A DNA stretch of 64,000 nucleotides, from assembly GCF_038957035.1 (NCBI RefSeq), contig NZ_CP152412.1:8676501-8740500 (forward strand), written 5' to 3'. The position numbers were made by a program, and so were the translations under genes. This stretch comes from Bradyrhizobium sp. B097 (lineage in GTDB: Bacteria > Pseudomonadota > Alphaproteobacteria > Rhizobiales > Xanthobacteraceae). This document shows, piece by piece, positions 38,860 through 44,216 of the stretch; the stretch's first letter is position 1, and each line of letters starts with the position of its first letter. A model generated the notes under the pieces. It did not search any database. It was not told where the DNA came from and saw nothing but the letters and a program-made list of their open reading frames with translations.

Positions 38860-39600
38860 TTACGAATGCTTCACGACCCAGGCCGCGAAGCCATCGAGCA
38901 CCTCGGCCATCACCTCGCTGTCGTTGCGGCCGGAGCGTTTCAGGACATGGAAGGAGTGATCCGCCTCCTGCACCAACTGCAACGTCGCACGCGCGCCGAG
39001 CCCCTTTACCACCGGTTCGAGCAGATCGAGCTCCGCCAGCGCGTCGCGCGTGCCCTGCAGGAACAGCAAGGGGATCTTGACCTCGGCGAGATGCTTGGCG
39101 CGCTCGCTCGACGGCTGGCCGGCGGGGTGCAGGGGAAAGCCGAGGAACACCAGCCCGCGCACGCCGGCGAGTGGCGCTTTGGCCTGCGCCTGCGAGGTCA
39201 TGCGGCCGCCGAACGACTTGCCGCCGGCGAACAGCGGCAGTTCGCCGCAACGGCGCGCGGCCTCCGCCACCGCGGCGCGCACCGTCGCCTGCGCGACGGC
39301 GGGCGGATCGGGCCGCTTGCTGCCCTTCTCCATGTAGGGAAATTGATAGCGCAAGGTCGCGATGCCGCGCTCGGCGAGGCCGACCGCAATCGTCTCCATC
39401 GAGGCATGGGTCATGCCGGCGCCGGCGCCATGCGCGAACACATAGGCGCTACGGGCCTGCGCCGGGCGCAGCAGCAGTGCGGACACCGCGTGATCGTCCG
39501 AGACCGTGATGGTGAGCGGCTGTGCACTTGGCGCGTTCAAGATGACATCTCGAAGAATTGTTGCTCCGTCATTTCTAGCCGCCGCGGTCCATGCGCGCAA
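38860..39600 (-). CDS. Alpha/beta hydrolase, KANL3/Tex30-like
   Basis: A hydrolase-fold protein of up to 246 residues. The oxyanion region is YVFAHGAGAGMTHASM (the HGAGA motif of this subgroup), the nucleophile Ser is in the GGKSFGGRM elbow, the acidic residue is in FLQGTRDALAEL, and the His in EADHSFHV, so the triad is complete. The true start is unclear: the first 20-odd residues are weak and a TTG at about base 39537 (LNAPSAQ) fits homologues better. Substrate unknown; related proteins include dienelactone-hydrolase-like esterases. Confidence 0.8.
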   Translation of the reverse strand: MRAWTAAARNDGATILRDVILNAPSAQPLTITVSDDHAVSALLLRPAQARSAYVFAHGAGAGMTHASMETIAVGLAERGIATLRYQFPYMEKGSKRPDPPAVAQATVRAAVAEAARRCGELPLFAGGKSFGGRMTSQAQAKAPLAGVRGLVFLGFPLHPAGQPSSERAKHLAEVKIPLLFLQGTRDALAELDLLEPVVKGLGARATLQLVQEADHSFHVLKRSGRNDSEVMAEVLDGFAAWVVKHS

Positions 39601-39800
39601 ATGACGCCGGGGAGAACACGCCGCAAGTGAACTGGCTCACAGCCAATCGAGATTTCCTTTGCAACATTTCCGTTGGTAGACCCAGCGCCGCCACTGTAGG
39701 ATGGCGCACAGCACATCACACGCTTAACGCGAACCTGTTTCGGCGATTTTTAATATCTCATCAATATGACGCGCGGGTACCGCGAATTGGGGAATGGGGC

Positions 39801-41636
39801 ATGCCTCGCAAGACGATCTTCTTCATCGGGCTGCTGATTGTCGCCGGCGTCCTCTACCTCAAGGACGATATCGAGACCGTGGCGAGCGGCTTCCGTGTCA
39901 AGGTCGTCGACTACCAGCCGCCGGCAAAGACGGTGTGGCTGGATCAGAATGTCAGCGCCGAGCGGCTGCGCTGGTTCTACCACGCCGACCAGGGCACGCG
40001 GACTTTCGGCATTCCCCTTGAGTGGTTCATGGCGCTGGAGCAGCCGACGGTCTGGCCGGTGCTCACCGCGGCACCGCGGCTCAGCGAGACCAATTATCTC
40101 GGCCGCTTCGGCTTTATTCCCGACACCGTGATTCCAGGTAGCCCCGATGCGCTGCCGATCGGATTTGCGCCGAGCGGCCCGATGGCTGACGCCAACGGCG
40201 CGCCCTGGCGCAACCCGCATAGCAAGGCCGACATGAACGGGGTCGGGCTGACTTGCTCCGCCTGCCACACCGGAAGCTTCAGCTATCGCGGCACCGAGAT
40301 CGTGATCGACGGCGGGCCGGCCAACACCAATTTGTTCGAGTTCCAGAAGAGCGTCGGCGTTTCGCTGCTGTTGACCCGGTTCTGGCCGGGCCGCTTCTCG
40401 CGCTTCGCCGAGGAGATCCTCGGCAAGGATGCCAGCCTCGACGAGCGCATGGCCCTGCGCGGCCAGCTCGATCTCGTGCTGAAGCAATACGCCAACATCA
40501 ATTCGCTGGAGACCAAGGTCGCCGCCAACAGCGTCGAGGAAGGCTATGCGCGGCTCGACGCGCTCAACCGGATCGGCAACCAGGTGTTCTCGATCGATCT
40601 GAACAACCCGAACAACTACGCCGCGCATTCGGCGCCGGTGCATTTCCCGCGGATCTGGAACGCGCCGTGGTTCAGCTGGGTGCAGTATGACGGCTCGATC
40701 ATGCAGCCGATGGTGCGCAATGCCGGCGAGGCGCTCGGCGTCAGCGCCGAGCTCAATCTGCTCGATGAATCCAGGGGCCTGTTCAAGTCGAGCGCGCGGA
40801 TCGACGTGCTGCACGAGATGGAGCGGATGATCGCCGGCGAGCCACCCAGCGAGGACAAGGGCTTTGGCGGCCTGGCGTCGCCGAAATGGCCGGAGAGCAT
40901 CCTGGGGCAGATCAACATGGATCTCGCGAAGAAGGGCGGCGAACTCTACAAGACGCATTGCCAAGGCTGCCACGGCCCGGCGATCGACAGCAAGGCGCTG
41001 CCCGCCAGCGAAGCCTTTGCGCTGTTCAAGGACAAGAAGCGCTGGATCAAGAACGACGCCGGCCAGCCGCTGCTCGACGTCGAGATGATTCCGATCAGCC
41101 ATATCGGTACCGACAGCGCGCAGGCCGAAGGCCTTGCGAGCCGCACCGTCGAGACGCCGGCCAATCTGAAGATCAAGGACGGCGGTTTCGGACCGGCGCT
41201 CGGCGAATTGGTCGAGAAGACCGTCGACTACTGGTACGACCAGAACAAGACCCCGCCGGAGGACCGCAAGCGCATCAACGGCTACCGGCCGAACGAGATT
41301 CAGGCGCCGCTCGCCTACAAGGTCCGGCCGCTCAACGGCATCTGGGCGACCCCGCCCTACCTGCACAACGGATCGGTGCCGTCCATCTACGCGCTGCTGT
41401 CGCCGGTGAAGGATCGTCCCCCGACCTTCTATCTTGGCAACCGGGAGTATGACCCCAAGGATCTCGGCCATGTCTGGAAGGACAACATCAAGAACGCCTT
41501 CGTGCTCGACACCAGCAAGCGCGGCAACAGCAATTCCGGGCACGAATTCTCGAACGAGAAGCGCCTCGGCGTGATCGGGCCGGAGCTGAAGGAAGACGAG
41601 CGCCGCGCCTTGATCGAGTTCATCAAGACGCTTTGA
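39801..41636 (+). CDS. Di-haem cytochrome c of the RoxA/RoxB rubber oxygenase superfamily
   Basis: A 611-residue exported protein with an N-terminal hydrophobic anchor or signal (about 5-20). The start at 39801 is preferred over the open frame back to 39591 because it directly precedes that segment. Two c-type haem sites are present: CSACH at 152-156 and CQGCH at 387-391. Overall order (GLTCSACHTG, then RPLNGIWATPPYLHNGSVP near the C-terminus) matches RoxA-like proteins, in which the N-terminal haem binds O2 and the C-terminal one is for electron transfer, and distantly MauG/CcpA peroxidases. RoxA itself cleaves polyisoprene; activity here is unknown and could be on another olefin or as a peroxidase. 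Faces a convergent flavoprotein gene. Confidence 0.85.
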   Translation: MPRKTIFFIGLLIVAGVLYLKDDIETVASGFRVKVVDYQPPAKTVWLDQNVSAERLRWFYHADQGTRTFGIPLEWFMALEQPTVWPVLTAAPRLSETNYLGRFGFIPDTVIPGSPDALPIGFAPSGPMADANGAPWRNPHSKADMNGVGLTCSACHTGSFSYRGTEIVIDGGPANTNLFEFQKSVGVSLLLTRFWPGRFSRFAEEILGKDASLDERMALRGQLDLVLKQYANINSLETKVAANSVEEGYARLDALNRIGNQVFSIDLNNPNNYAAHSAPVHFPRIWNAPWFSWVQYDGSIMQPMVRNAGEALGVSAELNLLDESRGLFKSSARIDVLHEMERMIAGEPPSEDKGFGGLASPKWPESILGQINMDLAKKGGELYKTHCQGCHGPAIDSKALPASEAFALFKDKKRWIKNDAGQPLLDVEMIPISHIGTDSAQAEGLASRTVETPANLKIKDGGFGPALGELVEKTVDYWYDQNKTPPEDRKRINGYRPNEIQAPLAYKVRPLNGIWATPPYLHNGSVPSIYALLSPVKDRPPTFYLGNREYDPKDLGHVWKDNIKNAFVLDTSKRGNSNSGHEFSNEKRLGVIGPELKEDERRALIEFIKTL

Positions 41637-43127: not shown

Positions 43128-44216
43128 TCAGACCTCGGGAATTGCCGGGTTGACGATCGGCGCGTGGACGGGGTTGTGGATGTGGATGTCGGGCAGCGGC
43201 CTCGCCGGTGCCTTGCCGAACAGCGAGGCGACGTGATCGACGAGGCCCTGGCACACCGCCTTGTCCGGGGTCTCGTTGTTGACGCCGGGCTCGAAGGTGC
43301 CGCCGATCACGACGTGGTCGCTGCGCGGGAACAGGTAGCCGTTCTGGCCGTAGAGATATTGCAGCACCGGCTGCGGCCGCAGCAGCGCAAGCTGTCCCTT
43401 GATCGGCATCATCTTGGTGTCGCTCCACAGCGTCATCGATCCGAGCCCGGTGCAGTTGACGATGATCGGCTGCGGCACGCTGGCCAGGATATCCGAACGG
43501 TTGACGAACCGCTTCGACACGAAGCTGACGCCGCGCTGGTCGAGGTCAGCCTTCAGCCTGGCGAGCAGGACCGGCGGCTCAATCAGCAGGGTCTGGTAGA
43601 CGAAGCCGGGCTTGGTGTGGTGCGCGAACGGCAAGCGCTGCAGCGGCTGCCGCGGCGGGATCAGGCCGGGCGCGAGTTGCAGCACGATGTCGAGATTGTG
43701 CGCGCGCGTCGCGGTGTAGTTCGGCCGCTCGAACACGCCGAACCCCTGCCCGATCCGATCCTTGAACGCACGATAGGCGCTCTTGACGATGTCGGTGAGC
43801 TCGCGCTCCTTGCCGGCGAATTCCACCACCGAGACGGCCCACTGGCCGCCGGCCTTGGCGGAGGTGGTCTCGAGCGGCGCGCGATCGGAATAGACCGTAA
43901 CCTTGAGCCCGAGATCGAGCAGCAATGTCGCGGCGGTCAGACCCATCACGCCGGCGCCGAGCACGGCGGCTTCGGTGACCCCACGGCTTGCGGCCAGATG
44001 ATCGCTAACGATGTCGCGGACCTTCGCGGCGCAGCCAAAACTCAGCGTGATGCCGGCGCCGCCATGGCCGTAATTGTGCACGATGAAGCTCTGCGAGATG
44101 GTTTCGGCATCGAGCCGGTACGATCCGTTGCGATAAGGCCGGACGCCGGCAATGCAGGCGCCGGGCTGATCGGGATCGAAGGCGAAATCTGGCGTCGGCA
44201 GGTTGGGCGTGGCCAT
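43128..44216 (-). CDS. D-amino-acid-oxidase-like FAD protein, circularly permuted
   Basis: A 362-residue FAD oxidoreductase of the DAO family with its parts in unusual order. Residues 24-35 (GVRPYRNGSYRL) and 47-63 (HNYGHGGAGITLSFGCA) correspond to the C-terminus of D-amino-acid oxidases, carrying the carboxylate-binding Arg and the third FAD motif. They precede the Rossmann motif AAVLGAGVMGL (83-93), normally the first residues. The chain then runs through YSDRAPLETTSAKAGG, NCTGLGS, KGQLALLRPQP and YLFPRSDHVVIGGTF (294-308) and stops about where the canonical C-terminal block would begin. The start at 44216 has a GAGG site. Co-transcribed with the BBE oxidase. All main motifs are intact, so I expect an active oxidase; substrate unknown. 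Confidence 0.82.
   Translation of the reverse strand: MATPNLPTPDFAFDPDQPGACIAGVRPYRNGSYRLDAETISQSFIVHNYGHGGAGITLSFGCAAKVRDIVSDHLAASRGVTEAAVLGAGVMGLTAATLLLDLGLKVTVYSDRAPLETTSAKAGGQWAVSVVEFAGKERELTDIVKSAYRAFKDRIGQGFGVFERPNYTATRAHNLDIVLQLAPGLIPPRQPLQRLPFAHHTKPGFVYQTLLIEPPVLLARLKADLDQRGVSFVSKRFVNRSDILASVPQPIIVNCTGLGSMTLWSDTKMMPIKGQLALLRPQPVLQYLYGQNGYLFPRSDHVVIGGTFEPGVNNETPDKAVCQGLVDHVASLFGKAPARPLPDIHIHNPVHAPIVNPAIPEV

Follow-up and report, generated by a model that had tools for sequence, protein, structure and literature searches.

In a stretch of 64,000 nucleotides from Bradyrhizobium sp. B097 (the window; contig NZ_CP152412.1, positions 8,676,501 to 8,740,500), a reverse-strand gene at 43128-44216 encodes a flavoenzyme related to D-amino-acid oxidase (DAO; EC 1.4.3.3) and D-aspartate oxidase (DDO; EC 1.4.3.1). 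We conclude, with a probability of about 88%, that the window protein belongs to this family as a natural circular permutant, with the origin and predicted role described below. A cut and rejoining of the DAO/DDO termini, as an earlier note on this DNA had proposed, is supported by swapped profile matches, a rotation scan, conservation, trees and a model of the core; it is our preferred reading because it explains the sequence evidence, the conservation, the trees and the core model together.

Two DAO blocks in swapped order

The open reading frame (ORF) was confirmed, and the motifs of its translation follow one another as the earlier note had it: GVRPYR (residues 24-29), HNYGHGGAGIT (47-57), GAGVMG (87-92) and GGTF (305-308). 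The linear order of DAO/DDO, with the Rossmann motif first and the GHGG block last, is not found in the window protein, and we therefore file it as a permuted sister branch rather than an ordinary family member. When the protein was scored with a hidden Markov model (HMM) of canonical DAOs, residues 77-332 matched with 135 bits and residues 23-72 (HMM positions 284-333) with 67.7 bits, in swapped order; shuffled controls reached at most 4.6 bits (n=200). The Pfam model PF01266 (DAO) matched with 101.7 bits, its best stretch covering residues 83-337. Conversely, a profile of the permuted family aligned to solved DAO/DDO structures in two pieces of swapped order in all four alignments displayed. 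In human DDO, for example, profile positions 108-363 correspond to chain residues 11-266, and positions 53-106 to residues 280-336. Two matched stretches were present in 16 of the 17 DAO/DDO sequences of solved structures and one stretch in 1c0i, while none of the 25 structure matches listed is a solved chain with the permuted order. Comparison with DAO families and structures, which the earlier note had suggested as a check, thus revealed two segments homologous to DAO, in swapped order and joined by a conserved new junction, as expected of a natural circular permutant.

Because HMMER splits the two blocks into separate local matches, we tested rotation by global alignment. Rotating the window protein in 3-residue steps and aligning each version to 15 canonical bacterial DAOs raised the mean score from 184 in the native order to 266 at cut 81, and the best cut fell at 63-84 for all 15 canonical sequences. 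Thirty shuffles averaged 10.6, and four canonical proteins used as controls peaked at their own ends. With a local HMM of the permuted proteins, the rotated order scored better in 11 of the 15 canonical proteins.

The statement that all motifs are kept, including the arginine for the substrate carboxylate, was borne out: R26, which aligns with this arginine of DAO, and the glycines of the Rossmann motif for flavin adenine dinucleotide (FAD; G87, G89 and G92) are invariant in an 85-row alignment. Parts of PMC9844085 assign substrate-carboxylate binding in DAO to the arginine of GxRPxR and give YGHGGxG and GxRPxR as signatures of bacterial DAOs, based on a bioinformatic search; YGHGGxG spans residues 49-55 of the window protein. 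Contrary to the earlier note, the chain continues beyond GGTF for 54 more residues, comprising a helix (319-332) inside the stretch that aligns with DAO/DDO and a tail (338-362), the end of which has a low predicted local distance difference test score (pLDDT). Y294 aligns with the second active-site tyrosine of pig DAO, whose active-site role we assume, and is replaced in 4 of 15 alignment rows (L022, L026, L030 and L031).

Structure comparison identified the DAO/DDO core fold, a Rossmann domain plus a substrate domain, in the predicted model, in which a helix (56-76) is followed by a strand (82-86) across the new junction. In chain order, its superposition on DAO has a TM-score of 0.6. Judging from this model of the core, the protein probably has a DAO-like fold and binds FAD in the same way. 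The moved block would occupy the place of the DAO C-terminal block in three dimensions. A viral structure library gave four matches at E <=0.001, none of them named DAO. The gene starts with an ATG at 44216, with GAGG 6 bases upstream, and its stop codon lies at 43128-43130. Two comparisons gave a ratio of nonsynonymous to synonymous substitution rates (dN/dS) of 0.28 and 0.13. The copies at loci L013-L016 are 94-99% identical to the window protein.

Distribution and origin of the permuted order

Three homologue searches, from which we considered the best 120 of 3460, the best 120 of 7668 and the best 120 of 7636 matches, included the window's own cluster as one of the 360 proteins listed. By motif order, 233 of 240 in the first two sets and 119 of 120 in the third are permuted (352/360), and none of the 360 has the canonical order. 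Unclassified by motif were seven of the 240 (five with variant motifs in which the block, judged by eye, still comes first, and two fragments) and one protein of the third set. Motif starts across the junction lie 33, 37 or 38 residues apart, a near-fixed spacing. No duplicated GHGG motif, and hence no duplication intermediate, was seen in the 360 listed homologues or the tree set. The source names among the homologues listed are D-amino-acid oxidase, glycine/D-amino acid oxidase-like, FAD-dependent or FAD-binding oxidoreductase, and hypothetical protein; across these hundreds of permuted proteins, with thousands more unclassified matches, no displayed name mentions permutation.

We searched genomes with a profile spanning the new junction, of 104 positions in the Pseudomonadota search. 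Each search scored few candidates per genome (12 for Pseudomonadota and for Alphaproteobacteria, 16 for Actinomycetota and 33 for the genus), which makes the counts lower bounds. At least 20 of the 398 genomes from Pseudomonadota, the window's included, gave contiguous matches of 129-154 bits, and all other matches scored <=40.5 bits. The permuted form is present in at least 15 of 385 alphaproteobacterial genomes, again including the window's, with a canonical gene in one (G1073), and in at least 15 of 146 Bradyrhizobium genomes. The sole contiguous, stop-free match in Actinomycetota was the probe genome, an Actinomadura (at least 1 of 296). Weaker part-profile matches occurred there in 32 more genomes, 21 of which carry both pieces in the canonical order, separated by about 800 bases; two matches (G632 and G666) pass the profile half only through a stop codon. 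Further permuted members in Actinomycetota are a Nonomuraea gene (L027) and proteins named Streptomyces (P0136 and P0139). These counts answer how widely the order is conserved, which the earlier note had asked.

Several individual relatives deserve mention. The window's genome holds a second permuted DAO (L022:6114-7298; G000:C1:4578113-4579297) with a Tat-type (twin-arginine translocation) signal; it shares only 28% identity with the window protein. In a 1.9 Mb genome, L113:4114-5295 (G979) encodes a permuted DAO that has diverged very far: it scores 79 bits with the junction profile and, by eye, seems to carry an ordinary Sec signal. Two relatives are frame-split, which may reflect mutation, sequencing error or a true split: L037:5974-7037, on the plasmid of a nodule isolate and broken right after GxGxxG, and L020:2206-3280.

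In a tree built from reordered blocks, a single branch (support 99/94) separates 36 permuted from 15 canonical proteins, and one change of order suffices in 100% of 200 bootstrap trees. A second tree added five flavoenzymes from the window's genome as outgroup, together with pieces of mammalian and fungal DAO/DDO; here 35 permuted rows form one group (94/89; one change in 95% of bootstrap trees). Six of the 31 loci L039-L058 and L069-L079 (L048, L049, L055, L056, L073 and L075) had no ORF with both motif patterns and are absent from the trees; L081, one of six outgroup regions, had no usable ORF, and L019, which duplicates L039, is absent from the second tree. The outgroup proteins, too, have the Rossmann motif close to the N-terminus, and for this reason we treat the canonical order as ancestral. 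These trees are most simply read as showing one early permutation. This ancient rearrangement would have linked the helix formerly at the C-terminus with the first Rossmann strand and created new termini in the loop preceding the GxRPxR strand, and the permuted gene would later have diversified, mainly in Alphaproteobacteria as far as sampled.

Gene partners, predicted role and alternative explanations

The gene for a FAD oxidase of the berberine bridge enzyme (BBE) type begins 9 bases past the DAO stop codon and has a Shine-Dalgarno sequence; the two genes are likely co-transcribed. The BBE protein carries GGHS and GSCPTVG motifs, whose histidine and cysteine we take to be its two flavin links. 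Beyond it, and convergent with it, lies a RoxA-like cytochrome c gene (39591-41636; PF21419, two CxxCH by eye), which is syntenic in L013-L017.

Table 1. Features of the permuted gene and its neighbour (window coordinates; gene end includes the stop codon)
Feature	Position	Strand	Basis
Permuted DAO-family flavoenzyme gene, 362 aa	43128..44216	-	ORF and translation
Relocated block, residues 20-77, equivalent to canonical DAO C-terminal block	43986..44159	-	Canonical HMM; human DDO 280-336
GxRPxR motif, GVRPYR, residues 24-29	44130..44147	-	G24, R26, P27, R29 invariant in 85-row alignment
HNYGHGGAGIT, residues 47-57	44046..44078	-	Y49, G50, H51, G53, G55 invariant in 85 rows
New junction, residues 77-81, old C-terminal helix to first Rossmann strand	43974..43988	-	Structure model
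First Rossmann strand and GxGxxG, residues 82-93 (N-terminal in canonical DAO)	43938..43973	-	Model; conserved glycines
Y294, aligned with pig DAO second active-site Tyr	43335..43337	-	Alignment; at least 90% conserved in 85 rows
GGTF, residues 305-308	43293..43304	-	Translation; alignment to DAO/DDO
C-terminal tail, residues 338-362	43131..43205	-	Full length only in nearest rows of 15-row alignment
BBE-type FAD oxidase gene, 488 aa	41652..43118	-	PF01565 84.9 bits; PF08031 63.8 bits

The earlier note had asked whether the permuted gene always sits beside a BBE oxidase; it does not. Among 17 loci from the clade of the window protein and its sister, a BBE gene is nearby in nine, a thiamine diphosphate (ThDP) enzyme in six and either in 12. 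Being nearly identical, the window locus and L013-L016 do not count as independent cases, and the sequence available upstream of L020 is short. Neither partner occurs at the 22 other permuted loci within the stretches examined (L031 and L110 being the same place). The gene orders are DAO-BBE in Bradyrhizobium, DAO-ThDP-BBE in Mesorhizobium (L018), BBE-DAO-ThDP in L028 and L029, and DAO-ThDP in Actinomadura (L021), Nonomuraea (L027) and L037. Three ThDP enzymes were tested, and their best model, indolepyruvate/phenylpyruvate decarboxylase, gave 207-213 bits, below its cut-off of 554.5. All six (L018:6123-7745, L021:6092-7714, L027:7117-8733, L028:7056-8756, L029:7059-8765 and L037:7088-8836) contain SDLEAGYAAD(G/A)YAR, with aspartate in the position of the cofactor-activating glutamate of related decarboxylases.

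The window protein has no recognisable export signal. One set of simple regular expressions, rather than a signal-peptide predictor, was applied to all homologue sets; among the homologues listed, the twin-arginine pattern occurs in 1/120 of the first (window-like), 92/120 of the second and 114/120 of the third set, and the lipobox pattern in 7/120, 14/120 and 119/120. By these patterns, the permuted clade of L100:4022-5194 and P0241-P0360 resembles Tat-exported lipoproteins.

Since neither Arg26 nor the FAD motifs vary in the 85-row alignment, DAO-like chemistry is the best inference, and the window enzyme probably oxidises an amino acid or a close analogue; the product would be an imine or keto acid, with Arg26 holding the carboxylate. 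In some relatives, a ThDP enzyme of the pyruvate-decarboxylase type joins the DAO-BBE pair or replaces the BBE enzyme, and the partners suggest a route from keto acid to aldehyde to further oxidation. A broader proposal, which we offer tentatively and regard as rather doubtful in its entirety, is that one ancient permutation founded an unrecognised second DAO/DDO branch and brought its N-terminus to the surface, that this enabled Tat and lipoprotein export in much of the branch, and that one cytosolic subbranch came to act alongside a ThDP decarboxylase and a bicovalent BBE enzyme in an undescribed pathway from amino acid through keto acid to an oxidised aldehyde product.

The strongest competing explanation, to which we assign a sizeable minority share, accepts the fold and has the enzyme act on another amine substrate or as a dehydrogenase passing electrons to a carrier, likeliest in the clades with export signals. 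The Tat-type signals of those clades, a cytochrome c gene that follows the Kozakia member and the replacements of Y294 all point this way, whereas the invariant carboxylate arginine and the fit of a decarboxylase-type partner, seen at 6 of 17 loci, with a keto-acid product argue for DAO-like oxidation. Several independent permutations are improbable: the permuted clade does have great depth, with identities to the window protein of only 26-28% in some rows, and the outgroup-tree support of 94/89 is not starred, but one change is enough in both trees and the spacing across the junction is near-fixed. Slightly less probable still is another kind of GR2-type flavoenzyme, whose N-terminal domain would be unrelated to DAO and would only look like its motif. 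The chain-order structure comparison, which spans only about 250 of 362 residues, would fit such a protein; against it stand the 67.7-bit match of the N-terminal block to the canonical C-terminal block, the lack of such a block at the C-terminus, the lack of a second GHGG motif in any listed homologue and the failure of the relocated block alone to yield a confident model (pLDDT 43). An assembly or sequencing artefact fusing two fragments, named in the earlier note as what would overturn the claim, is hardly credible: frame-broken copies do exist (L020 and L037), but independent genomes keep the order, which recurs in nine named genome records (including frame-broken L020) and in the listed homologues, and dN/dS is low at the values given above.

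Some results weigh against a circular permutant of DAO as we describe it. The superposition on DAO covers the core only, leaving residues 1-77 outside (the aligners follow chain order). With a local canonical HMM, rotation improved the score of only 5 of the 36 permuted proteins. The alignment (effective number of sequences, 81) was too shallow for coevolution analysis. In the outgroup tree, the 18 canonical rows are grouped with modest support (82/76; 86%), and the rooting rests on very long outgroup branches. Finally, 5 of the 17 partner loci (L019, L020, L023, L116 and L117) have neither partner.

Comparison with known oxidases

The circular permutation of the DAO family is real, old and widespread, and apparently undescribed. 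The earlier note knew of no permuted member, and we likewise found none among the papers listed from the searched open-licence literature on permutation and amino acid oxidases or flavoproteins, or on DAO together with Bradyrhizobium, Rubrobacter, twin-arginine signals, BBE or indolepyruvate decarboxylase, two of these listings covering 15 of 1,235 and 10 of 15 papers; such an absence is not proof. By term counts, the main texts of two permutation-detection papers (PMC12667903 and PMC11757225) contain none of oxidase, oxidoreductase, flavin, FAD or Rossmann, and 'permut' occurs 0 times in the main text of PMC9844085 and in the portion of PMC4699246 covered. DAO is a textbook flavoenzyme, and its permutant illustrates how order-dependent annotation can hide a family. 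The permuted proteins provide a natural test of the fold's tolerance for new termini and offer new, perhaps exported, enzymes for work with D-amino acids; set side by side with canonical forms, they allow a test of the circumstances in which permutation is of use.

Like DAO/DDO of known structure (PDB 1kif, 2du8, 6rkf and 7ct4), the window protein has both conserved blocks, the carboxylate arginine and, as predicted, the core fold. Unlike them, its family has a rotated chain with new termini before GxRPxR, and many listed members of two permuted clades carry export-type signals. Glycine oxidase ThiO (TIGR02352) shares part of the core, and its model scores 58.6 bits against a cut-off of 250.8, so that the window protein is not assigned to it. 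With the canonical bacterial DAOs (L032-L036 and L038; in Actinomycetota, L069-L072, L074 and L076-L079) the window family shares GxRPxR and YGHGGxG, but it carries these blocks in swapped order and lies on the other side of the tree.
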